Shown here: in pieces, positions 2,601-45,900 of the stretch
Position numbering within the stretch: position 1 is the stretch's first letter
How the letters are laid out: every line of letters starts with the position of its first letter
Origin: Gallaecimonas sp. GXIMD4217
GTDB taxonomy: Bacteria; Pseudomonadota; Gammaproteobacteria; Enterobacterales; Gallaecimonadaceae
Assembly (NCBI RefSeq): GCF_038087665.1
Contig: NZ_CP149925.1
Location: 2,170,870-2,234,869, forward strand
DNA: 64,000 nt
Direction: 5' to 3'
Program-made: the position numbers and the translations under genes
Notes under the pieces: generated by a model
Seen by the model: only the letters and a program-made list of their open reading frames with translations
Databases searched by the model: none
What the model was told of the DNA's origin: nothing

Positions 2601-3563
2601 GGCCACCGCCTCCAGCCCGGCCGCCAGGGCAATGCGTGGCGCCTGGGTCTGCTCGATATGCTCCAGCCCCAGCAGCGCCATGGCCAGGCGGCCCTGGCCT
2701 ATGCCGCCGCCCACCGTCTGCGGCAGGGCGCCGGCCATCAGCGCCCGGTGCCAGGGGCTGGCGGGCACCCCGGCCTCGCCGAACTGGCGCGCCATGGCCT
2801 CGGCATCGACGCGGATGCCCATGGACGACAGCTCCAGGGCCCGGCCCAGGGGCGGGTGCCAGATCAGGATGTCGCCGTTCAGGCCGCCGCCCAGCTCGGT
2901 ATGGCTGCTCCAGTCGTCATAGTCCGGGGCCCTGTCGTCGTGGGGCCGGCCGTCGCCCAGCTCGCCGCCGATACCGATCAGAAATACCGCCCCCAGCTCC
3001 CGGCAGATGGCGTCCTCCCGCGCCTTGGCGCTGAGCCCGGGATAGCGGCGGCGCAGCGCCTCGCTGCACACGAAGTGGATATGCTGTGGCAGCCGAGGCT
3101 CATGGCCGAGCCGGTCGCTGAGTTCGAGATCCACCTCGCGAAAAGCGCCGTAGATGGCCTCCACCCTGGCCCTGAGTCCCGCCAGGCTGCGCTCGTCCTG
3201 GTGGATCACCTGCTCCCAGTCCCATTGCTCCACCAGCAGGCTGTGCAGGGGGCCGGTGCTGGCCTCGTCGGCGCGTATGGCCTTCATGTCGGTGATCAGG
3301 CCCTGGCCGGCCTCGAATGCCAGCTGGCCCAGGGCGGCCCGCTTCCACTTGGCCAGGGAGTGGACCACCTGGTATTCCCGCTCCGGTGCTTCCTTGGGGC
3401 AAAAGGCCACCGGTCGCTCGGTGCCGCTCAGGCCGTCCTGCATGCCGGAGTCGCCCTCCAGGAACAGGGGTGCCTGGACGGGAGTCAGCCGCAGGGCCCG
3501 GCACAGGGCCTGTTGGGTGAGGGACTTGACGAGGTGCAGTTGCTGTTGGTGTTGCTGGCTCAT
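2598..3563 (-). CDS. asnA: Aspartate--ammonia ligase (asparagine synthetase A)
   Basis: 321 aa, close to the usual 330. Makes asparagine from aspartate, ammonia and ATP (to AMP and PPi) in the cytoplasm. Recognisable family blocks are VVHSLAKWKR, the PLHSLLVEQWDWEQVI segment, IHFVCSEALRRRYPGL, GAVFLIGIGG, RAPDYDDWS, LNGDILIW, LSSMGIRVDA and the C-terminal PQTVGGGIGQGRLAMALL. It is divergent from asnC, its usual regulator. The ATG at 3563 has a GGAGAG element immediately upstream. The gene ends inside the shared terminator with batD. Confidence 0.97.
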   Translation of the reverse strand: MSQQHQQQLHLVKSLTQQALCRALRLTPVQAPLFLEGDSGMQDGLSGTERPVAFCPKEAPEREYQVVHSLAKWKRAALGQLAFEAGQGLITDMKAIRADEASTGPLHSLLVEQWDWEQVIHQDERSLAGLRARVEAIYGAFREVDLELSDRLGHEPRLPQHIHFVCSEALRRRYPGLSAKAREDAICRELGAVFLIGIGGELGDGRPHDDRAPDYDDWSSHTELGGGLNGDILIWHPPLGRALELSSMGIRVDAEAMARQFGEAGVPASPWHRALMAGALPQTVGGGIGQGRLAMALLGLEHIEQTQAPRIALAAGLEAVA

Positions 3564-3622
3564 GGCTCTCTCCTGTGCGTTTTTTATAAAACTACAGGCG
3601 ATGGCGGGACTTTTTAAACAGC

Positions 3623-3651
3623 TTGAAAGAGAGAATTGATAGTGCGATAAG
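3623..3651 (+). promoter_or_regulatory. Candidate sigma-70 promoter for asnC in the asnA-asnC divergent region
   Basis: TTGAAA (3623-3628), 17-bp spacer, GATAAG (3646-3651) in an AT-rich island inside otherwise GC-rich DNA. The 143-bp asnA-asnC gap is the expected location of AsnC binding, but I cannot name an AsnC site with confidence. Confidence 0.35.
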
Positions 3652-3706
3652 AAATAAAAAATGAAACGGCAAATTTAGATTGGTTTCCAAAATCGAGAGC
3701 CTGAAT

Positions 3707-4183
3707 ATGAGCGCAGACTTTCAGATCGACAAGCTGGACAAGGCCATACTGGAGCTGCTGATCCAGGACGCCCGCATCTCCTACCAGGAAATCGCCCGCC
3801 GCCTGGACGTCAGCGGCCCCACAATCCATATCCGCATCAACAAGATGCGCTACGCCGGCGTCATCACCGGCACCCGCATGGATGTCAACGTGGCCCTGTT
3901 GGGCTACAGCGTCTGCGCCTTTGTCGGCATCAACCTGATCAACGCCAGGGATTACCCCAGGGTATTGGCCAAGCTCGAGAAGCTGCCCCAGGTGGTGGAG
4001 GCCCACTACACCACCGGCCAGTATTCCATCTTTGCCAAGGTCCAGCTCAAGTCCACCCGGGATCTGCACCTGTTCCTGGTGGAAGGGCTCCAGGCCATCC
4101 CCCAGATCCAGTCCACCGAGACCTTTATCTCCCTGGACACCCCCATCGACAGGCCGCTGCCCATGGACGTGCTGCTGGAGTAA
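3707..4183 (+). CDS. asnC: AsnC, Lrp/AsnC-family regulator of asnA
   Basis: 158 aa from the ATG at 3707, chosen because GAGAG lies 7 bases upstream and homology begins at FQIDKLDKAILELL. A possible ATG at 3680 lacks a ribosome site. The N-terminal winged helix-turn-helix (ISYQEIARRLDVSGPTIHIR) is followed by the RAM/Lrp ligand-binding alpha-beta sandwich with the AsnC signatures EAHYTTGQYSIFAKV and IQSTETFISL. AsnC senses asparagine and activates asnA. The divergent pairing with asnA supports this specific member rather than generic Lrp. Confidence 0.95.
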   Translation: MSADFQIDKLDKAILELLIQDARISYQEIARRLDVSGPTIHIRINKMRYAGVITGTRMDVNVALLGYSVCAFVGINLINARDYPRVLAKLEKLPQVVEAHYTTGQYSIFAKVQLKSTRDLHLFLVEGLQAIPQIQSTETFISLDTPIDRPLPMDVLLE

Positions 4184-4262
4184 CGCAATAATCAGGGCTA
4201 TCGACGCTAGGGGTCCCATTTTGCAGCGAAAGGAATTTCTCAAGGCGCCGGTCCCTAGGGGC

Positions 4263-4772
4263 ATGGCGACTAAACAACGACGATTCGAAGCCCTGGTGGC
4301 CGCCCTGCACGGCGACCTCTACCGGTACGGGCTTTGGCTGACCAACGACGCATCGGTATCGGAAGATCTGGTGCAGGAAACCTTCCTCAGGGCATGGAAG
4401 TCATTGGACTCCCTGAAAGACGAGAAGGCCGCCAAGGCGTGGCTGATCACCATCCTCAGGCGCGAAAACGCCCGCCGTTTCGAGCGCAAGCGGTTCGACA
4501 TGAGCGAGTATGACGAGGCCAGGGTCGAAGACACCACCAGCACCGGCCAGGAGGGGCAGTTCTCGCAGCTGGAGTTGCGCCGGCAGATCAGCCGCCTGGA
4601 GGCGGAATACCGGGAACCGCTGGTACTGCAGGTGCTTTTTGGCTACAGCGGGGAAGAAATCGCCCAGATGCTGGATCTCAATAAGAACACCGTGATGACC
4701 CGCTTGTTCCGCGCCCGGAACAAGCTCAAGGAGGCTCTCAATGAGCCCCAGGCAGAGAAGAGAGTGCGATGA
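4263..4772 (+). CDS. ECF-type RNA polymerase sigma factor
   Basis: 169 aa. Region 2 (LYRYGLWLTNDASVSEDLVQ ETFLRAW, about residues 17-45) binds core RNA polymerase and the -10 element. Region 4 (LFGYSGEEIAQMLDLNKNTV, about 122-142) is a helix-turn-helix for the -35. No region 1.1 or 3 is present. The ATG at 4263 gives a normal ECF N-terminus but has no well-spaced ribosome site; a TTG at 4221 in the same frame is possible. The stop overlaps the next gene as ATGA. That gene is a membrane protein of a type paired with such sigmas, so activity is probably held by an anti-sigma factor. The target regulon is unknown. Confidence 0.85.
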   Translation: MATKQRRFEALVAALHGDLYRYGLWLTNDASVSEDLVQETFLRAWKSLDSLKDEKAAKAWLITILRRENARRFERKRFDMSEYDEARVEDTTSTGQEGQFSQLELRRQISRLEAEYREPLVLQVLFGYSGEEIAQMLDLNKNTVMTRLFRARNKLKEALNEPQAEKRVR

Positions 4773-5488
4773 TGAACGATCTGGAATTCAGGCGAGCGGT
4801 CTATGAAGATCCCAACAACCTGGGCCCCGAAGCCCAGGCCGTTGCCGACAGTTCAGACGCCAATCGCCATTTCGTCAACGAGATACAGGAGCTGGACAAG
4901 GCCCTGGCCGGCGCCATGGCGGTGGAGGTACCGCCCAACCTGGCCGACCGCATCCTGCTCAACCAGACCCTGGGTGAATTCGAGCGCCGCCAGCAAAGGC
5001 GCAGCCGCTGGCAGCTGGCCATTGCCGCCTCCCTGGCCTTCGTGGTCGGTGGCCTGATGACCTTCATGGGCCTCAACCGCAGCCCCCTGGGCTACGGCGG
5101 CCACGCCCTGGCCCATGTCTACCACGAGGCCGGCATGCTGGATCAGGTGGACGAAAACGTGACCCTGGCCGCCTTCAACAAGAAGCTGGCCAGTTACGGC
5201 GCCAGGCTCACCGGCGACATAGGCCATATCTATTTCGCCAACCATTGCGACTTCCAGGGGGTTCGCGGCCTGCACGCCATCATCCAGGGCGAACAGGGCC
5301 GGATCACCGTGTTCGTGATTTCGGACAAGGTCCGCACCGGCAATGAGCAGGCCCATTTCGCCGACCACCGCTTCGACGGCCTGGCCGAGAAGCTGGGCAG
5401 TCACCAGGTGATCTTCATCGGCGAAAAGGGGGAGCCCCTGGACAAGTTCGAACGGCGCTTCAAGGAGCAACTGCAGCGGCAAATCTGA
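4769..5488 (+). CDS. DUF3379-family membrane protein, probable anti-sigma factor
   Basis: 239 aa. A cytoplasmic N-terminus (1-80), one membrane span (about 82-102, AIAASLAFVVGGLMTFMGL) and a periplasmic C-terminal domain. This is a single-pass anti-sigma arrangement, and the gene is fused by a 4-base overlap to the ECF sigma gene. DUF3379 proteins are repeatedly found in this position. A direct sigma-binding motif is not visible, so the anti-sigma role is inferred from position and topology. A strong terminator closes the two-gene unit. Confidence 0.75.
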   Translation: MMNDLEFRRAVYEDPNNLGPEAQAVADSSDANRHFVNEIQELDKALAGAMAVEVPPNLADRILLNQTLGEFERRQQRRSRWQLAIAASLAFVVGGLMTFMGLNRSPLGYGGHALAHVYHEAGMLDQVDENVTLAAFNKKLASYGARLTGDIGHIYFANHCDFQGVRGLHAIIQGEQGRITVFVISDKVRTGNEQAHFADHRFDGLAEKLGSHQVIFIGEKGEPLDKFERRFKEQLQRQI

Positions 5489-5502
5489 TATCTTGCCCCC
5501 AT

Positions 5503-5538
5503 AAGCGCATCGGCCTTGGGTCGATGCGCTTTTCTGTT
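5503..5538 (+). terminator. Terminator of the sigma/anti-sigma operon
   Basis: Perfect 10-bp stem aagcgcatcg/cgatgcgctt, 9-base loop, then TTCTGTT. It lies 14 bases after the stop at 5488. Confidence 0.8.
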
Positions 5539-5588
5539 ACTATCCTGTTGCAAAAGCACACAATGACAACGACATAAAGGAGTTTGAT

Positions 5589-7031
5589 GTGCCTATCATC
5601 ATCACCTTCCTGGCCTATCTGCTGCTGCTGCTGAGCCTGGGGCTGCTGGCCTACAGGAAAACGGACGACTTCTCGGACTATGTCCTCGGCGGCCGCAAGA
5701 TGGGACCGGCCGTCACCGCCCTTTCCGCCGGGGCCTCCGACATGAGCGGCTGGCTGCTGCTGGGCCTGCCCGGCGCCGTCTACCTGTCCGGCATTTCGGA
5801 GATCTGGCTGGGCCTGGGCCTGGTGATCGGGGCCTATATCAACTGGCTGCTCATCGCCAAGCGGCTGCGCATCTATACCTACCACACCGATGACGCCCTG
5901 ACCCTGCCCGACTTCCTTGGCAAGCGCTTCGGCGAGAAGAGCCAGGGCATCCGCGCCATTTCCGCCCTGACCATACTGCTGTTCTTCACCTTCTACACCT
6001 CCGCCGGCCTGGTGGGGGGCGCCAAGCTGTTCGAACAGGTCTTCGAGCTGCCCTACTACTGGGCGCTGGTCATTGGCGGCGGCGTCATCGTCTCCTACAC
6101 CTTCGTGGGCGGCTTCTTCGCGGTATGCTGGACCGATTTCTTCCAGGGCCTGTTGATGCTGCTGGCGCTGCTGCTGGTGCCGGCCGTGGTGCTGTCCAGC
6201 CTGGGCGGCGCCGGCCAGGTGGAGCAGGATCTGGCCAGCCTGCATCCGGAGCTGCTGGACGTCTGGCACGGCGCCAGCCTGGTGGGCATCGTCTCCCTGC
6301 TGGCCTGGGGCCTGGGCTATTTCGGCCAGCCCCACATCCTGGCCCGCTTCATGGCCATCGAGAGCCCCCAGGCGGTGCCCAGCTCCCGCCGCATCGCCAT
6401 GGGCTGGATGGTGCTGGCCCTGGTCGGTGCCGTACTGACCGGCCTGGCCGGCCGCCTCTACTTCGAAGGCAGCCCCCTGGAGGACGCCGAAACGGTGTTC
6501 ATCTTCCTGTCCCAAGCGCTGTTCAGCCCCTGGGTGGCCGGCATCATAGTGGCGGCCATACTGTCCGCCATCATGTCCACCGTCGATTCCCAGCTGCTGA
6601 TCTGCTCCTCGGTGTTGACCGACGACATCTACAAGCCCTGGCTGCGTCCCAAGGCCTCGGACAAGGAGCTGATGTGGGTGGGCCGTTTCGGGGTGCTGGC
6701 CGTGGCCGTGGTGGCCATGGTCATCGCCGCCAACCCGGAAAGCACCGTGCTGGAGCTGGTCGGTTACGCCTGGGCCGGCTTCGGTTCCGCCTTCGGCCCT
6801 GTGGTGATCCTGAGCCTGTTCTGGCGCCGCTTCAACCTGGCCGGCGCCCTGGCCACCATCATCACCGGCGCCCTGGTGGTGGTGCTCTGGCCCATGCTCG
6901 GCACCGAGCTGTACGAAATGGTGCCCGGCTTCGGCCTGGCGTTGCTGGCCGGCATCGTCGCCAGCCTGATCACCCCCGCGCCCAGCGCACAGGTGCAACA
7001 GACCTTCGACGAGGTCAGGGCCCAGCTCTAG
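5589..7031 (+). CDS. putP: Sodium/proline symporter PutP (copy 1)
   Basis: 480 aa, SSS family, about 13 membrane segments. The GTG start at 5589 is set by AAGGAG with a 6-base spacer. Sodium- and proline-site signatures are present: ALSAGASDMSGWLLLGLPGA in TM2 and ILSAIMSTVDSQLLICSS in TM9. GLGYFGQPHILARFMA and YAWAGFGSAFGPVVI are also typical of PutP. It imports proline with Na+ across the inner membrane. It is monocistronic between two terminators. A second, diverged PutP lies at 46394-47917, and putA is not in the window. Other SSS substrates cannot be excluded, but the TM2 signature favours proline. Confidence 0.88.
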   Translation: MPIIITFLAYLLLLLSLGLLAYRKTDDFSDYVLGGRKMGPAVTALSAGASDMSGWLLLGLPGAVYLSGISEIWLGLGLVIGAYINWLLIAKRLRIYTYHTDDALTLPDFLGKRFGEKSQGIRAISALTILLFFTFYTSAGLVGGAKLFEQVFELPYYWALVIGGGVIVSYTFVGGFFAVCWTDFFQGLLMLLALLLVPAVVLSSLGGAGQVEQDLASLHPELLDVWHGASLVGIVSLLAWGLGYFGQPHILARFMAIESPQAVPSSRRIAMGWMVLALVGAVLTGLAGRLYFEGSPLEDAETVFIFLSQALFSPWVAGIIVAAILSAIMSTVDSQLLICSSVLTDDIYKPWLRPKASDKELMWVGRFGVLAVAVVAMVIAANPESTVLELVGYAWAGFGSAFGPVVILSLFWRRFNLAGALATIITGALVVVLWPMLGTELYEMVPGFGLALLAGIVASLITPAPSAQVQQTFDEVRAQL

Positions 7032-15984: not shown

Positions 15985-19099
<3,115 letters not shown>

Positions 19100-19107
<8 letters not shown>

Positions 19108-20065
19108 CGTCTTCCCCCCAGCGGATCTCATCGCCATCCTTCAGGCCGGACAGCACCTCGACCTTGTCGCCGAAGCGACGGCCCAGCACTACCGCCTGCC
19201 ACCGGGGCCTGTCACCCAGCCGCCGCACCAGGGTCAGCTCGCCTCGGCGGACCACGGCGGCCACCGGGATCACCAGCCCCTCGCGGCTGCCAAGGGACAC
19301 CGCCACCTGGCGCCATTGACCGGGCACCAGCTGCGGCTCGGCATTCAGTCCCAGGCGGAGCCGGGCGGTGCCGCTGGCGGGGTCGTCTTGGGGGAACAGC
19401 ACGAAACTGGCCACCGGCAGCCGGCGCCCTTCTTCCAGCAACCAGGCCTGGCGCTGCGCCTCGGCATCGGCCCGGTAGCGGCCGGGCATGTCGACGTGCA
19501 GACGCAGGGATTGGGGATCGAAGCCGGACAGCAGCGCCGTACCGGGCCAGACCAGCTCGCCCACTTCCACGTGGCGGGCGCTGACCACACCGCCATAGGG
19601 GGCATGGACCTCGGTGTAGGAAAGCTGCTCTCGCGCCTGCTTGAGCCCGGCCTGGGTCGCCGCCAGCCGGGCCTGGGCTTCATCGAGGCGGCCCCTGGCC
19701 CGGTCCAGTTCGGCCTTGGGCTGCAGTCCCTTGCCGACCAGCTCGCTGATCCGCCGCCATTCCCGGCGTTCGCTGACCAGCCGGGCCTGGGCGGCTTCCA
19801 GCTGGGCCTGGGCCCGGTTCAGGCCCTGCTGCTGCTCGACGCCGATCAGGGTCAACAGCAGGGCGCCGGCATCCACCCGGTCACCCACATCCACCAGCAG
19901 CGACGCCACCCGTCCCGAGGTCTGGGCTGAAACGGTGGCGCCGCGCACCGCTTCCACCTGGCCCTGGAGCACCAGCTCCCGGGGCAAGGGGGTCGGTGTC
20001 AGGGTCCAGCCCTGTGCCCATGCCAGAAACGGCAGCGTCAACAACCCGATCCAGGCTCTCATCAT
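19100..20065 (-). CDS. RND periplasmic adaptor (membrane fusion protein)
   Basis: 321 aa. Signal peptide MMRAWIGLLTLPFLAWA|Q with no lipobox. The lipoyl half-domain (ATVSAQTSGRVASLLVDVGD RVDAGALL) is followed by a helical hairpin about residues 75-145 (LNRAQAQLEAAQARLVSERR ... RLAATQAGLKQAREQL), the second lipoyl half (TEVHAPYGGVVSARHVEVGE) and a beta-barrel domain. AGGAG precedes the paired ATG ATG; the second ATG at 20062 has the better spacing. The stop overlaps the RND permease start. It bridges the pump to the outer-membrane channel. Confidence 0.9.
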
Positions 20066-39538: not shown

Positions 39539-39566
39539 TTGAATCATATAGATAAAACCGTATAGT
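39539..39566 (+). promoter_or_regulatory. Promoter of the three-adaptor ABC operon
   Basis: TTGAAT (39539-39544), 16-bp spacer, TATAGT (39561-39566), in an AT-rich stretch 30 bases before the first ATG. Confidence 0.55.
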
Positions 39567-39596: not shown

Positions 39597-40274
39597 ATGA
39601 TCAGAGTCAAGGGATTGACCAGGACCTTCGGCCGGGGCGAGACGGAGGTCCAGGCCCTGAAGGGCCTGGATCTGCACATCAAGGCCAACGAATTCGTCGC
39701 CATCATGGGGCCGTCCGGCTCCGGCAAATCCACCCTGATGAACATTCTGGGCTGCCTGGACAGGCCAAGCGGCGGCAGCTACCGCCTGGCCGGCCAGGAG
39801 GTGGCCCGCCTGGACGACGACGCCCTGTCCCGGGTGCGCAACCAGGACATCGGCTTCATCTTCCAGACCTTCCACCTGCTGCCCAGGCTGAGCGCGGTTC
39901 GCAACGTCATGTTGCCGCTGCGCTTTTGCGACCTGAGCGATGCCGAAGCCGAAGCCAGGTCCATCGCCATGCTGGAAAAGGTCGGCCTGGGCCACCGGTT
40001 GCACCACAAGCCCTTCGAGATGTCCGGCGGACAGCGGCAGCGGGTGGCCATCGCCCGGGCCCTGGTCAACGAGCCCAGGATCATCTTCGCCGACGAGCCG
40101 ACCGGCAATTTGGACTCCAGGACCTCGCTGGAGATCATGGCCCTGCTCAAGTCCCTGCACGACCAGGGCCAGACCATAGTGCTGGTCACCCACGAGGATG
40201 AGATCGCCGCCTATGCCCAGCGGGTGCTGGTGATGCGCGACGGCGAGCTTCAGGAGGTGCGCCATGCGGCTTAA
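39597..40274 (+). CDS. ABC transporter ATPase, MacB/LolD type
   Basis: 225 aa. Walker A GPSGSGKST (about 38-46), Q-loop FIFQTFHLLPRLSAVRN, ABC signature MSGGQRQRVAIARALV, Walker B IIFADEPTGNLDS, H-loop VTHED. The 'DEPTGNLD' and QTFHLLP segments place it in the MacB/LolD group that powers mechanotransmission permeases rather than pumping through the membrane. It is the first gene of a five-gene operon; the next start lies 11 bases inside its end. Confidence 0.95.
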   Translation: MIRVKGLTRTFGRGETEVQALKGLDLHIKANEFVAIMGPSGSGKSTLMNILGCLDRPSGGSYRLAGQEVARLDDDALSRVRNQDIGFIFQTFHLLPRLSAVRNVMLPLRFCDLSDAEAEARSIAMLEKVGLGHRLHHKPFEMSGGQRQRVAIARALVNEPRIIFADEPTGNLDSRTSLEIMALLKSLHDQGQTIVLVTHEDEIAAYAQRVLVMRDGELQEVRHAA

Positions 40275-41199
40275 GTCCCTTTGGCTGCTGCTCCTGCCCT
40301 GCCTGGCCCAGGCCCAGAACCTGCTGCTGACCGGCCAGATAGACGCCCGCGAGGCCCAGAGCTTCGCCGTGCCCAGGACAGACAACTGGAACCAGCAGAT
40401 CCAGTGGATGCTGGACGAGGGGGAAATCGCCCAGCGGGGCGATCTGGTGGTGGTCTTCGACGGCAGCAGCATCAACAACCAGATCGAACAGGTGGAAAGC
40501 CAGCTGCGCACGGCCGAGGACCAACTCAAGGAGAGCCAGTCCCGGCTGGACTTGGAAGTACTGGAAGCCGAATACCTGGTCAGGCGCAACGACAACCTGC
40601 TCAAGAAGGCCGCCATAGACGCCGGCATCCCCCTCCAGCACCTGAGCCAATACGACCACGACAGGTACGGCCTGACGCTGGTCAAGGCCAGGCGGGAGCT
40701 CAAGCTGGCCAGGGAAGCCCTGGCCACCAAGCGCTTCAACCGCGACGCCGAGCTGGCCAGGCTGGCCCTGGCCATCAACAAGCTCAAGGCCAAGCTCGAA
40801 CTCAACCGCCGCCAGGCCGAGCAGCTGTCCATGAAGGCCGAGGTGACGGGGCCGGTGATCCACGGCACCCATTGGGACGGCACCAAGTACCACGTGGGCA
40901 GCGCCGTCCAGGCCACCTGGGAGGTGGCCAAGATCGCCTCCAGCCAGGGGCTCAGGGTCGAGGCCTGGGTCAACGAAGTGGATCTGCACCGCCTGAGCCA
41001 GGGCGCCGGCGTCCGCCTGCTCCTGGATGCCCATCCCCAGACGCCCATTCAAGGCACCATCACCGAGCTGGGCCGCCAGGCCGAAAAACGGGACGACTGG
41101 GGCCAGGCCCGCTACTTCCAGGTGCTGATCGACATGCAGTCTCCTCCCCTTGAATTGCTGGTGCCCGGCATGAGCGTACTGGTGGAGGTGTCGTCATGA
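40264..41199 (+). CDS. Periplasmic adaptor 1 of the MacB-like system
   Basis: 311 aa. Cleavable signal peptide MRLKSLWLLLLPCLAQA|QN, no lipobox, unlike the two following adaptors. A barrel-sandwich half (LLTGQIDAREAQSFAVPRT ... QRGDLVVVFDG) leads into a long helical hairpin about 70-195 (INNQIEQVESQLRTAEDQLK ... KLKAKLELNRRQAEQLSMKA). The second sandwich half and a beta-barrel (VEAWVNEVDLHRLSQGAGVRL) follow. It shares the HlyD fold but little sequence with adaptors 2 and 3. The next start overlaps its stop as ATGA. Confidence 0.85.
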   Translation: MRLKSLWLLLLPCLAQAQNLLLTGQIDAREAQSFAVPRTDNWNQQIQWMLDEGEIAQRGDLVVVFDGSSINNQIEQVESQLRTAEDQLKESQSRLDLEVLEAEYLVRRNDNLLKKAAIDAGIPLQHLSQYDHDRYGLTLVKARRELKLAREALATKRFNRDAELARLALAINKLKAKLELNRRQAEQLSMKAEVTGPVIHGTHWDGTKYHVGSAVQATWEVAKIASSQGLRVEAWVNEVDLHRLSQGAGVRLLLDAHPQTPIQGTITELGRQAEKRDDWGQARYFQVLIDMQSPPLELLVPGMSVLVEVSS

Positions 41200-42353
41200 A
41201 GTACTGGCTGACCACCCTGGTGTTGCTGCTGGCTGGCTGTGGCGAGCCGGGGCAATGGCAGAAGGTGGAAAAGCGTTCCGCTCAGCAGTGGATCAGCGCC
41301 AACGGCGAGCTGGCTTCCAGCGACACCGCCTACATAGGGCCGCCGTCCATCGACAACATGTGGAACTACCAGATCACCTACCTGGCCCCAGAGGGGCAGC
41401 GGGTCAAGGCCGGCATGCCGCTGGTGACCTTCGACGGCAAGGAGTTGCAGAAGAAGCTGGAGCTCAAGCGCAGCGAGCTGGCAACGGCCCGCAAGAAACT
41501 GGACAACACCCGGATGCAGGACGAGCACCAGCTGGAAGAGCTGAAGCTCAGGCAGGCGGAGCTGGCCATGGAGCTGGACAAGGCCGGGCGCAAGGTGGCC
41601 ACCCTGGACGAGACGGTGGCCCTGAACGAGCAGCAGCAGTTGAAGCTGGATCTGCGCATCGCCGAGGACGAACACTTTCTTGGCCAGCGCAAGGTCGACC
41701 AGCACCGGGCCGCCGCCCGGACCCGGGCCGATCTGGCCCAGCGCGAAGTCAACCGCCTGGCCCTGGAAGTGGCCCAGCTCGAACACGACCTGGGCAGGCT
41801 GACCATCCCCGCCCCCAAGGACGGCATGGTGGTTTACCACCAGGACAGGGGCGGGGACAAGGTGGCGGCCGGTGACAGCGTCTGGATGGGACAGCAGCTG
41901 ATGCTGATCCCCTCCCTGGACAAGATGGTGGTCAAGGCGGAGATAGCCGAGCGTGACGCCGGCAAGATCCGCGTCGGCCAGGCGGTGCGCATCCGCCTCG
42001 ACGCCAACCCCGAAGTGGTCTATCAGGGGCAGATCCAGTCCCTGGGCAAGCTGTTCCGGCAGAAATCGCGGCACCAGCCGGCCATGGTCTTCGACGCCCT
42101 GGTCACCCTTGCCCAGCCCGATCCCGAGCTGATGCGCCCGGGCATGGCCGCCCGCCTGGAGATCCTCACCCGGGATCTGGGCGAGGTGCTGCTGGTGCCG
42201 GCCCGGGCCGTACAGCAGCACGGCGACGGCCACCGGCTGCAGCTAAGGACGGCACTGGGCCAACGCGACCAGCAGGTCACCCTGGGGCCCAGGCTGGGCG
42301 ACCAGGTGGTGATCAGCCAGGGCCTGGAAGCGGGCCAGGAGATCAGGTTATGA
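41196..42353 (+). CDS. Periplasmic adaptor 2 (lipoprotein) of the MacB-like system
   Basis: 385 aa. Lipobox LLLAGC with Cys15 and Gly at +2. In E. coli the absence of Asp at +2 sends a lipoprotein to the outer membrane, whereas classical adaptors stay on the inner membrane. Lipoyl halves around residues 55-75 (QITYLAPEGQRVKAGMPLVT) and 205-225 (LTIPAPKDGMVVYHQDRGGD) flank a long coiled-coil hairpin (about 78-200, KELQKKLELKRSELATARKK start). Barrel and membrane-proximal domains follow. Overlaps both neighbours by ATGA. Confidence 0.87.
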   Translation: MKYWLTTLVLLLAGCGEPGQWQKVEKRSAQQWISANGELASSDTAYIGPPSIDNMWNYQITYLAPEGQRVKAGMPLVTFDGKELQKKLELKRSELATARKKLDNTRMQDEHQLEELKLRQAELAMELDKAGRKVATLDETVALNEQQQLKLDLRIAEDEHFLGQRKVDQHRAAARTRADLAQREVNRLALEVAQLEHDLGRLTIPAPKDGMVVYHQDRGGDKVAAGDSVWMGQQLMLIPSLDKMVVKAEIAERDAGKIRVGQAVRIRLDANPEVVYQGQIQSLGKLFRQKSRHQPAMVFDALVTLAQPDPELMRPGMAARLEILTRDLGEVLLVPARAVQQHGDGHRLQLRTALGQRDQQVTLGPRLGDQVVISQGLEAGQEIRL

Positions 42354-43543
42354 GAAAGTGGCTATTGAGTCTGGCCCTGCTGCTGGGCGCCTGCGCCGAG
42401 CCGGCCAGGGAGGTATTGACGGTACGGGCCCAGCAGGGCCCCTGGCAGATCCAGGCCCCGGCCAGGGGTGAGCTGACGGCGGCCAAGGCCGTGCCCATCT
42501 CGGCGCCGGCCGGGGTCAACGGCCCCCAGCGGGTGGTATGGCTGGCGCAGGAGAACAGCCTGGTCAAGAAAGGGGAGCTGATCGCCCGCTTCGACGGCGA
42601 CAGCTTCCGCAATGCCCAGCGCGAAGCCGAACTCAGCGTGGCCATGGTGGATTACCAGATCCAGCAGAAGGACCGCGATCTGGGCCAGGAGCGCCAGCAG
42701 ATCCTCAAGGAAACCGAGCTGGTGGCCAGCGAACTGGCCCTGGCCGACCGATACGGCGTCGAGGATCTGCGCGTCTACAGCCGCAACGAGATCATCGACA
42801 ACCTCAGCAACAAGGGCTTCCTCCAGGCCAAGACCGGCTACCACCAATGGCAGCTGGACAGCCATGAGCACAAGGCCGGCAGCGAGCTTGATCTGCTCAG
42901 GCTGCAAAGGGCCAGGGAGGAGACCCTGCTGGAGCAGAATCGCCAGTCCCTCAAGCGCCTGGAGGTCCGAGCCCCCCAGGACGGCCTGCTGGTCTACAAG
43001 CGCAACTGGCGCGGCGAGCAGGCCCGTGTCGGCGAGATGATGTGGCCGGGGCGCAAGTTCGCCGAGCTGCCCGACACCAGCCAGATGGAGGCCAGGCTCC
43101 ATGTGCTGGAGTCCGAAGGCGCCGGCCTGCAGGTGGGCCAGGCCGTCGAGCTGGCCCTGGACGCCTTCCCGGACCAGCCCTTCAGCGGCCGCGTCAAGAG
43201 CCTGGATGGCTTCGCCAAGAGCATCCGCCGCGGCGATCCGGTCAAGTACTTCGAAGTGATGGTGACCCTGGACAGGATCGATCCCGAGCTGATGAAGCCG
43301 GGCCGCCAGCTCCAGGCCAGGATCACCCTGGCCGAGCTGGACGGGGTGCTGACCCTGCCAAGCCAGGCCGTCTTCCAGGAGGATGGCCGCTACTTTGCCT
43401 ATGTGCAGGACGGCGATGACTTCGTTCGCACCGAACTCAGCCCGGGTCAGCGCTCACTGACCCGGGTGCAGATCCTGTCGGGCCTGGACGCCGACACCAG
43501 GGTCGCCCTGCTGGAGCCGCCCAAGGAGAGGATAAGGCCATGA
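42350..43543 (+). CDS. Periplasmic adaptor 3 (lipoprotein) of the MacB-like system
   Basis: 397 aa. Lipobox ALLLGAC with Cys15 and Ala at +2. Sandwich halves PISAPAGVNGPQRVVWLAQE and RAPQDGLLVYKRNWRGEQAR enclose an interrupted helical hairpin (about 90-205) containing a non-helical insert around LADRYGVEDLRVYSRNEIID. A C-terminal barrel plus membrane-proximal domain ends ILSGLDADTRVALLEP. The insert distinguishes it from adaptor 2. ATGA overlaps with adaptor 2 and with the permease gene imply matched translation of all subunits. Confidence 0.87.
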   Translation: MRKWLLSLALLLGACAEPAREVLTVRAQQGPWQIQAPARGELTAAKAVPISAPAGVNGPQRVVWLAQENSLVKKGELIARFDGDSFRNAQREAELSVAMVDYQIQQKDRDLGQERQQILKETELVASELALADRYGVEDLRVYSRNEIIDNLSNKGFLQAKTGYHQWQLDSHEHKAGSELDLLRLQRAREETLLEQNRQSLKRLEVRAPQDGLLVYKRNWRGEQARVGEMMWPGRKFAELPDTSQMEARLHVLESEGAGLQVGQAVELALDAFPDQPFSGRVKSLDGFAKSIRRGDPVKYFEVMVTLDRIDPELMKPGRQLQARITLAELDGVLTLPSQAVFQEDGRYFAYVQDGDDFVRTELSPGQRSLTRVQILSGLDADTRVALLEPPKERIRP

Positions 43544-44775
43544 AGTTGAAGGAAATGCTCTGGCAATCCCTGGATGAGCTGCTGCATCACAAACTGCGCA
43601 CCCTGCTGACCCTGCTGGGGATGATCTTCGGGGTCGGCGCCGTCATCGCCATGCTCAACATAGGTGAAGGGGCCCAGCGCGAGGCCCTCAAGCTGATCGA
43701 CTCCATGGGCCTGCGCAACCTTATCGTCCAGGGCCAGGAATACGACAACGAGCGCCTCAAGGAGATCCGTGAGGAGTCCACTGGCCTCAGCCTGCGGGAT
43801 CTGGAGGCCAGCCTGGACACCCTGCCCTTCGTCCAGGCCCACAGCGCCGAGAAGAACGTCAAGACCCATGATCTGTTCAGCCACCAGGGCAGCTCGGACG
43901 CCCAGGTGCTGGGGGTGACCGCCAGCCACTTTGAGCTGGCCAGCCTCAAGGCCGCACGAGGAAGGCTGTTCGACGACCAGGACGACCGCCACTATGCCCA
44001 GGTGGCGGTGATAGGCCAGGAGGTGGCCCAGGCGCTGTTCCCGGGCGGCGGGGCCCTGGGCGGACGCCTCAAGGTCAACCACCTCTGGCTGGAAGTGGTG
44101 GCGGTGCTGGCCAGCCCCAGGCTCAGCAAGGAGGAGTTCCAGGGCGTCAAGCTGGGTGGCGAGCGCAACCGCATCTATATCCCCCTGCAGACGGCCCTGA
44201 AGAAGCTCAAGCACCAGCCCCTGGCCAGCGAGCTGGATGCCTTCCGCCTGCAGCTGGCCACCGGAGTCGATCCCCTGGCCGCCAGCCAGGCGCTCAAGCA
44301 CCTGCTGGACAGGCGCCACGGCGGCGTCGACGACTACCGGATCCTGGTGCCGGCCCAGCTGCTGGCGCAACAGGCCCAGACCCAGCAGATCTTCAATATC
44401 GTCATGTCCTGCGTGGCCGGGATCTCCCTGCTGGTGGGCGGCATCGGCATCATGAACATCATGCTGGCCACGGTGCTGGAGCGAACCAAGGAGATCGGCC
44501 TGCTCAGGGCCGTGGGCGCCAGGCGCCAGGATGTGGTAGCACAGTTCATGGCCGAAAGCTTCGTCATCGCCTGCCTGGGTGGAGTGCTGGGGATCCTGTT
44601 CGGCCTGGGGCTGTCGGAGCTTATCGCCCTCTATTCGGACTGGACCGTGGCCTGGTCGTTCTGGGCCATTGCCCTGTCGGTGACTATCTGCGCGCTGATC
44701 GGCCTGCTGTTCGGTGTCTACCCGGCCATCAAGGCCTCCCGGCTCGACCCCATACAGGCCCTGCAGAGCGACTAA
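43540..44775 (+). CDS. MacB-type ABC permease
   Basis: 411 aa, four membrane helices: about 20-45 (LRTLLTLLGMIFGVGAVIAM), then a large periplasmic MacB_PCD domain (about 48-280), and TM2-4 (VAGISLLVGGIGIMNIMLAT, FVIACLGGVLGILFGLGLSE, FWAIALSVTICALIGLLFGV). ERTKEIGLLRAVGARRQDV is the coupling region, PAIKASRLDPIQALQ the canonical C-terminus. No fused ATPase, so it works with the separate ATPase at 39597. A periplasm-to-outside exporter by analogy with MacB; cargo unknown. Terminated 3 bases after the stop. Confidence 0.93.
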   Translation: MKLKEMLWQSLDELLHHKLRTLLTLLGMIFGVGAVIAMLNIGEGAQREALKLIDSMGLRNLIVQGQEYDNERLKEIREESTGLSLRDLEASLDTLPFVQAHSAEKNVKTHDLFSHQGSSDAQVLGVTASHFELASLKAARGRLFDDQDDRHYAQVAVIGQEVAQALFPGGGALGGRLKVNHLWLEVVAVLASPRLSKEEFQGVKLGGERNRIYIPLQTALKKLKHQPLASELDAFRLQLATGVDPLAASQALKHLLDRRHGGVDDYRILVPAQLLAQQAQTQQIFNIVMSCVAGISLLVGGIGIMNIMLATVLERTKEIGLLRAVGARRQDVVAQFMAESFVIACLGGVLGILFGLGLSELIALYSDWTVAWSFWAIALSVTICALIGLLFGVYPAIKASRLDPIQALQSD

Positions 44776-45441: not shown

Positions 45442-45900
45442 TCAGTGCTCCCCCAATGGCAGCCGGTAGTGATAGAAGCCGCTTTCCCGCTCATAGCCCA
45501 GGGACTCGTACAGGGTCTGGGCCTGGGTGTTTTGCACCTGGGTCGACAGCACCAGGCTGCGGCCGTGGTGCTGCTCGGCAAAGTCCCTGGCCGCGGCCAT
45601 CAGGGCCCTGGCCACCCCCTGGCGGCGGCCGGCCGACACCACATAGAGATCGTTGAGGATCCAGATGGGGCAGGCGGACACAGACGAGAAGCTGGGATAC
45701 AGCTGCACGAAACCCAGGGCCTCGTCGCTGCCGTCGTAGGCCACGAAGATCTGCGACTGGCCGTGGCTGATCCGCTCGGTGAGAAAATCCCTGGCCAGGT
45801 TGAGATCGCTCGGCTGGCCGTAGAATTGACGATAGGCGTCAAACAGCGGCGCCAGTTGTGGCAGTTGCAGCAGATCGGCGCTGCGGATCTCGATGGTCAT
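45442..45900 (-). CDS. GNAT-family N-acetyltransferase
   Basis: 152 aa. The GNAT core: LGFVQLYPSFSS (beta strands 2-3), LNDLYVVSAGRRQGVARALM with the acetyl-CoA loop RRQGVA (motif A), and NTQAQTLYESLGYERESGFYHY (motif B with the Tyr general acid). PIWILNDLYV is typical of a subgroup acting on small amines or amino acids. The acceptor is unknown. Divergent from the DUF4440 gene. Confidence 0.85.
   Translation of the reverse strand: MTIEIRSADLLQLPQLAPLFDAYRQFYGQPSDLNLARDFLTERISHGQSQIFVAYDGSDEALGFVQLYPSFSSVSACPIWILNDLYVVSAGRRQGVARALMAAARDFAEQHHGRSLVLSTQVQNTQAQTLYESLGYERESGFYHYRLPLGEH

Follow-up and report, generated by a model that had tools for sequence, protein, structure and literature searches.

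A conserved MacB-type ABC exporter operon encoding three dissimilar adaptor proteins

We describe an operon of five overlapping genes that encodes a MacB-type ABC exporter together with three different adaptor proteins, here called A1, A2 and A3. It lies in a 64,000-nucleotide stretch of the genome of Gallaecimonas sp. GXIMD4217 (contig NZ_CP149925.1, 2170870-2234869), referred to below as the window. Judged by sequence comparison, the five genes are an old and stable set, and their co-occurrence is not chance. The gene set, its co-conservation, the domain content, the hairpin lengths and the natural fusions of A1 with A2 were all observed directly. We consider it somewhat more probable than not that the operon specifies a MacB-like tripartite exporter, in which a hexamer containing A1, A2 and A3 at 2:2:2 matches the permease dimer and works on an unlinked TolC-like channel.

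Gene content of the operon

The five genes share the + strand. The first (39597-40274, 225 aa) encodes a separate nucleotide-binding subunit of the LolD/MacB type, with a match to ABC_tran (E 5e-33), Walker A GPSGSGKS, signature MSGGQ and H-loop THE; a pattern search for Walker B was negative, and the stretch IIFADEPT was recognised by eye. The last (43540-44775, 411 aa) encodes a permease with a MacB periplasmic core domain (MacB_PCD, E 4e-35) and an FtsX domain (E 8e-22) and without a fused ATPase, whose relatives by PDB sequence search are the MacB entries 5gko, 5lil and 5nik. By its permease domains and intact ATPase motifs, the operon is classed as a MacB-type (type VII) ABC exporter. Between these two genes lie A1 (40264-41199, 311 aa), A2 (41196-42353, 385 aa) and A3 (42350-43543, 397 aa), which all match HlyD_3 and HlyD_D23 in Pfam (HlyD_D23 slightly below the cut-off in A1) and share 23-26% pairwise identity. 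Successive genes overlap by 11, 4, 4 and 4 bases, and the coordinates, gene order and overlaps given in a first-pass annotation of the window all proved correct.

The proteins fall far short of the curated MacA and MacB equivalog models. The best NCBIfam matches of the ATPase are MacB, LolD and DarD, and none is above its cut-off among the best 25 listed. The MacB equivalog requires 966 bits; the ATPase scores 266 and the permease 203, each spanning just part of the fused chain. Against the MacA equivalog (342 bits needed), A2 scores 57, A3 34 and A1 28, and the broad adaptor model TIGR01730 (cut-off 95 bits) is passed among the three adaptors by A2 alone (108).

The five-gene set is conserved in gene order

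A search of 394 genomes of the order with A3, run to a limit of 1e-45, identified orthologues in 31 genomes (E<=2.5e-75 throughout), which represent 14 of 115 genera, and the order ATPase-A1-A2-A3-permease was found in all 31 loci (the ATPase of L084 is cut by the contig end). The distribution is patchy: only one of five genomes of the window's own family carries A3, and in a class-wide sample of 369 genomes the single occurrence was the window itself. In a phylum-wide sample, the A3 query matched 9 of 299 genomes at E<=1e-20. Three of these nine (G858, G894 and G959; loci L114, L115 and L116), which lie outside the class, have another layout, in which the ATPase and a MacB-type permease stand beside one very long adaptor with a hairpin spacing of 198.

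To avoid selecting loci by their adaptors, we also used the permease as a query against 335 genomes of the order (E<=1e-60, scoring just the best few candidates per genome). Matches were found in 27 genomes, and 26 of these were strong (E<=1e-148, 57-63% identity, 100% for the window). All 26 came from genomes already known to carry A3, with the permease directly 3' of A3; the remaining match, in G191, is an outlier (E 2e-63, 36% identity). The first-pass annotation had named homologous operons with two of the adaptors usually decayed or absent as what would speak against its assembly, and we find instead the full set beside 26 of 26 orthologous permeases. Decayed or optional adaptors are ruled out by this search together with the conserved five-gene loci. 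A recent duplication within this genome is likewise ruled out, as the A1, A2 and A3 lineages are common to distant genomes.

The set extends to other orders. In the order of genome G940, the fused A1-A2 protein of that genome matched 70 of 250 genomes, and each of the 40 loci fetched from these genomes shows the conserved five-gene order as far as its contig extends. Genes missing at such ends are the permease in L153, A3 and the permease in L159, and the ATPase and part of A1 in L168; L165 and L174 each have one terminal gene cut at a contig end. In the order of G1006, the only match among 250 genomes was G1006 itself. Altogether 42 loci from other orders have the same gene order up to their contig ends. 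The genome search for this gene order that the first-pass annotation had proposed finds the set kept in the window and 72 further family loci (73 in total), as far as the contigs reach. A named example is locus L191, with the five genes in order, on the 1.3-Mb replicon NZ_CP074588.1 of Pseudoalteromonas piscicida. Four-base start-stop overlaps are frequent at A1/A2 (37 of 57 unfused loci), A2/A3 (63 of 71, two cross-hits excluded) and A3/permease (51 of 71), and occur at ATPase/A1 in 15 of 72.

The three adaptors share one hairpin length

Each adaptor carries a hairpin insert between the two halves of its lipoyl domain, and the number of residues between the halves, measured by alignment, served as a ruler. 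In the window this spacing is 127 in A1 (40456-40839, residues 65-192), in A2 (41430-41813, residues 79-206) and in A3 (42590-42973, residues 81-208), all on the + strand. We counted spacings in the 71 loci with all three adaptors read, excluding L153 and L159, whose A3 rows are cross-hits to the fused A1-A2 frame. The values are 127/127/127 in 68 of these loci, the window included; the exceptions are A1 of L113 (126), A3 of L182 (128) and A1 of L168, which is cut by the contig end. Since hairpin lengths hardly vary, covariation of length between the adaptors could not be used.

Among 29 control adaptors, several of which are close relatives of one another, the spacing was 68 (14 adaptors), 96 (7), 198 (3), 127 (2), and 82, 110 and 138 (1 each). 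One sample per class was RND-adaptor-like at 68, MacA-like at 96, MdtN/EmrA-like at 127 and EmrA-like at 138. The operon thus combines a MacB-type system with an EmrA-like hairpin length, the same in three adaptors that are only 23-26% identical in the window. We also observed that the control spacings 68, 82, 96, 110 and 138 look quantised in steps that are multiples of 14 residues; the values 127, in this family and in two MdtN-like controls, and 198 fall off this series.

A1 and A2 are repeatedly fused

A single open frame covers both A1 and A2 in 16 of the 73 loci (L112, L113 and L147-L160), and the search in the order of G940 gave 15 near-full-length single-frame A1-A2 matches, G940 included. 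In L112 the barrel of A1 leads into the lipoyl domain of A2 through a short linker of ~15-20 residues by eye, and the profile matches of A1 and A2 in the fusion lie 6 residues apart. The A2 half of the L112 protein has no lipobox (by eye) and no membrane-proximal domain (by tail measurement). We followed the fused or separate state on a quick-method tree of 70 loci, of which 14 are fused, with L153, L159 and L168 excluded. The state changes at least four times, and three of these changes are forced by starred branches. Recurrent gain or loss of the fusion, with A3 encoded apart, points to A1 and A2 as neighbours at 1:1. Two rows counted as A2/A3 fusions were rejected as cross-hits of L153 and L159, where the contigs end.

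Three adaptor lineages with unequal domain content

The three adaptors were placed on a quick tree of 84 family adaptors, from 28 of the 73 loci, and 12 other adaptors; the outgroup row L014 forms a very long branch and was not interpreted. A1, A2 and A3 each fall on one side of a branch, with support of 100, 33 and 99, respectively. All three fit the lipoyl-hairpin-barrel adaptor family, A1 and A3 by sequence and by AlphaFold 2 and Foldseek, and A2 by sequence. In Foldseek, the best matches of A1 are MacA and EmrA, with template modelling (TM) scores by query length of 0.57-0.66 among the first ten, and that of A3 is MacA of MacAB-TolC (0.44-0.51 among the first ten); whole-chain superpositions of both on their best structural matches are loose. 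A PDB sequence search with A1 gave no match.

The domain content of the adaptors differs. In the window, A1 has a signal peptide, no lipobox and no membrane-proximal domain, its chain ending after the beta-barrel, and its AlphaFold 2 model (six-row alignment, mean predicted local distance difference test score, pLDDT, 85.9) consists only of lipoyl domain, long hairpin and barrel. A2 is a predicted lipoprotein (LAGC) and in the window a full adaptor. A3 is also a predicted lipoprotein (LGAC), with lipoyl domain, hairpin, beta-barrel and membrane-proximal domain; its model (mean pLDDT 83.1) has the full-length hairpin and C-terminal membrane-proximal strands. Across the family, a lipobox is present in 69 of 73 A3 rows, two of the four negatives being the cross-hits L153 and L159, and in 41 of 57 unfused A2 rows. 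A C-terminal tail of the length of a membrane-proximal domain was measured in 23 of 68 A2 rows, about a third, by a script that may misjudge single A2 or A3 tails. Long-tail flags by the same script in four A1 rows (L099, L163, L178 and L184) were mis-picked motifs, since the matches end 3-12 residues from the frame end. The anchor and the membrane-proximal domain are thus, by prediction, unequally shared: A1 has neither in the window, A3 nearly always has both, and A2 is variable.

Outer-membrane channel and flanking genes

The genome encodes two strong OEP proteins, at 2503263-2504435 and 2726067-2727254, both outside the window, and the statement that no TolC-like gene is nearby therefore holds for the window. 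The sole OEP match inside it (19616-19828, E 2.9e-4) falls within the frame of an RND-pump adaptor; the region 15985-20065 on the - strand encodes an ordinary RND pump with its adaptor, and it is this adaptor frame that yields the weak match. When the 73 family loci were searched by BLAST with these two OEP proteins, no channel was detected, although very divergent channels would escape the search. OEP (TolC family) proteins are present in 34 of 34 checked genomes with the system, and in the genome of the window as well. Flanking proteins were clustered for the first-fetched loci, and elsewhere Pfam was applied to 9 hand-picked flanking proteins. No neighbour cluster that could represent a linked cargo or channel gene is common to more than 8 of the clustered loci, and the clusters present in at least four loci all come from one genus (code g6).

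A mixed adaptor ring as the proposed assembly

We infer the ring order, the 2:2:2 stoichiometry, the TolC-type partner and the mechanism as follows. Six staves of equal length, two each of A1, A2 and A3, would stand side by side in the order A1-A2-A3-A1-A2-A3. Such a ring would have a twofold symmetry that fits the dimer of a MacB-type permease, moving the mismatch to the joint between adaptors and channel. A3 would fix the ring to the inner membrane and the permease, and A1 and A2 would pair as neighbours and complete the wall, a division of work in which A3 provides anchor and coupling, A2 wall, and A1 an unanchored stave. At their tips, the hairpins would dock on a general channel of the TolC type whose gene lies elsewhere, and ATP-driven motion of the periplasmic part of the permease may push periplasmic cargo up the tube, as in MacB. 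For the stricter form of this proposal, an obligate A1A2A3-A1A2A3 heterohexamer that is twofold like the ABC dimer and not threefold like TolC, we see slightly less than an even chance.

The first-pass annotation had offered a mixed hexamer, stacked rings or alternative adaptors. We favour the mixed hexamer because of the equal hairpins of 127, the A1-A2 fusions, the absence of membrane-proximal domain and lipobox from A1 of the window and the strict co-conservation; the other two options fare less well, as set out below.

Several observations weigh against the mixed ring. The spacing of 127 is found in two controls and is not unique to the family, and the same hairpin length would be equally expected from three homohexamers working on one channel. 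Almost every bacterium of this kind has TolC-type proteins, and their presence in the genomes with the system is weak support. In a 2:2:2 ring, each adaptor type meets each kind of TolC groove once, leaving the tips unspecialised, which is awkward but possible. The adaptor tree speaks only weakly for a single origin of A2 (the branch with 33% support), and 16 of the 57 unfused A2 rows have no lipobox by the same pattern. A lipobox-like string is also present in 10 of 73 A1 rows; by eye, six of these precede the likely start and four (L047, L086, L112 and L179) are in the signal region, and in L086 and L112 the lipid anchor of A1 may be real.

Among the alternatives, the one that survives best, although we regard it as unlikely, is a hexamer of three A1-A2 pairs, with A3 as an extra anchor or lower collar to the permease. 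The A1-A2 fusion would be a ready dimer unit for such a ring, PMC4446572 treats both fused dimeric adaptors and a ring built as a trimer of dimers as established concepts, and A3 nearly always has the anchor and membrane-proximal domain that a collar would use. However, the hairpin of A3 also has the length 127 and is full-length in the AlphaFold 2 model, which would be superfluous in a collar.

It is rather improbable that the operon encodes a periplasmic machine that stops short of the outer membrane, its MacB-type stroke serving some other task in the envelope and its adaptors holding the cargo. No linked channel was found in the window or in the BLAST search of the 73 loci, no cargo gene is conserved next door among the clustered loci, and the type VII ABC systems LolCDE, FtsEX and YbbAP do not export through TolC, as stated in PMC12646458. 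Against this, the long hairpins and their constant length imply a partner at a set distance, and the closest structures include MacA and EmrA, both of which function with TolC.

We find quite improbable the proposal that one transporter uses A1, A2 or A3, each as a homo-oligomer, according to the outer-membrane partner or the cargo. Each adaptor has a complete lipoyl-hairpin core, and the conserved tip residues differ among the three. However, A1 is missing the membrane-proximal domain and, in the window, the lipobox as well, natural A1-A2 fusions force a 1:1 ratio, and all three adaptors are retained in the examined loci up to contig ends. The sequences speak against an arrangement in which three full adaptors interchange freely. 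Stacked adaptor rings giving a longer tube are very improbable: differing anchors could set the adaptors at different heights, with nothing specific in favour, but equal hairpin lengths and the short A1-A2 linker suit packing side by side.

Relation to known systems

MacAB-TolC is built from one MacB dimer, a MacA hexamer and a TolC trimer, and MacA has an N-terminal transmembrane helix, as described in PMC5985334. The operon resembles this system in its permease with MacB_PCD and FtsX domains, its MacB-type ATPase, its HlyD-fold adaptors and the finding of MacA as best structural match. It differs in that the ATPase of the window is a separate gene, unfused to the permease; in that three adaptor genes rather than one are conserved as a set; in that the window encodes two predicted lipoproteins and an A1 with neither lipobox nor N-terminal transmembrane helix; and in its spacing of 127, as opposed to 96 in MacA-like adaptors, with an A1 that has no membrane-proximal domain. 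In TriABC-OpmH, according to PMC13328181, a single hexameric ring is thought to contain both TriA and TriB, adaptors that are not equivalent. That pump is of the RND type and has two adaptors, whereas the present system is an ABC exporter of the MacB type with three, and with an A1 that has no membrane-proximal domain. MacAB-TolC, with one adaptor, and TriABC-OpmH, with two, are the closest precedents.

The hairpins recall adaptors of the EmrA/MdtN type, with spacings of 127 and 138 in two labelled examples and EmrA among the best Foldseek matches of A1. These adaptors serve MFS transporters and are single adaptors. EmrA, like A1, has no membrane-proximal domain, as reported in PMC4158417. Fused adaptors of the DSY0927 kind are natural covalent adaptor dimers in the description of PMC4446572; in the present family, two particular and dissimilar adaptors are fused, and a third exists beside them. 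VarABCDEF of Vibrio cholerae (PMC5595328) and LitOPAI of Legionella pneumophila (PMC11559062) are described as having a MacB-type permease, a separate ATPase and an adaptor, but each has, by these accounts, one working adaptor and its own outer-membrane channel gene. VarABCDEF has two permeases, and VarB is given in PMC5595328 as a 40-residue remnant of a second adaptor.

Multiple membrane fusion proteins appear in PMC8963506 with RND-type metal pumps, and in PMC4319957 at several separate loci; in the excerpts of either source, no three-adaptor operon is described. No three-adaptor MacB-type operon was found in titles and abstract openings among the open-access matches listed, a scope mostly outside subscription papers. 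Within these listings, the suggestion of an undescribed assembly is supported only so far as a MacB-type operon with three adaptors goes; one-adaptor pumps, two-adaptor pumps and fused adaptors have been described.

A basic question about such pumps is how an adaptor ring of sixfold symmetry connects a twofold ABC transporter with a channel that is threefold. Three distinct and separately taggable staves would make this joint testable, with positions that can be mutated singly, and the natural A1-A2 fusions fix one neighbour relation. The operon also suggests that anchor and membrane-proximal domain, usually in one protein, can be divided among subunits.

Other features around the operon

Just 5' of the operon is a weak sigma-70-like promoter match (39539-39566, + strand, 9 of 12 positions); the pattern has 2 matches in 6.5 kb against a shuffle mean of 0.7, and a match is no evidence of function. 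A GNAT acetyltransferase gene (45442-45900, - strand) adjoins the operon in the window. Its relatives lie 5' of the operon in five loci, all from genus g6, and these loci belong to another family than the window.

In L045 (11950-14996, genome G018), two similar short precursor-like frames, recognised by eye, begin ~160 bases 3' of the operon and are followed by an MvdD-type ATP-grasp gene and a protease-like gene. This flank is probably a modified-peptide maturation cluster; it is a single case, and a separate ABC exporter gene is close by. Locus L087 of genome G312 carries, ~1.4 kb 3' of its five-gene operon, another set of genes for an adaptor, an ATPase and a permease (2868-5981).

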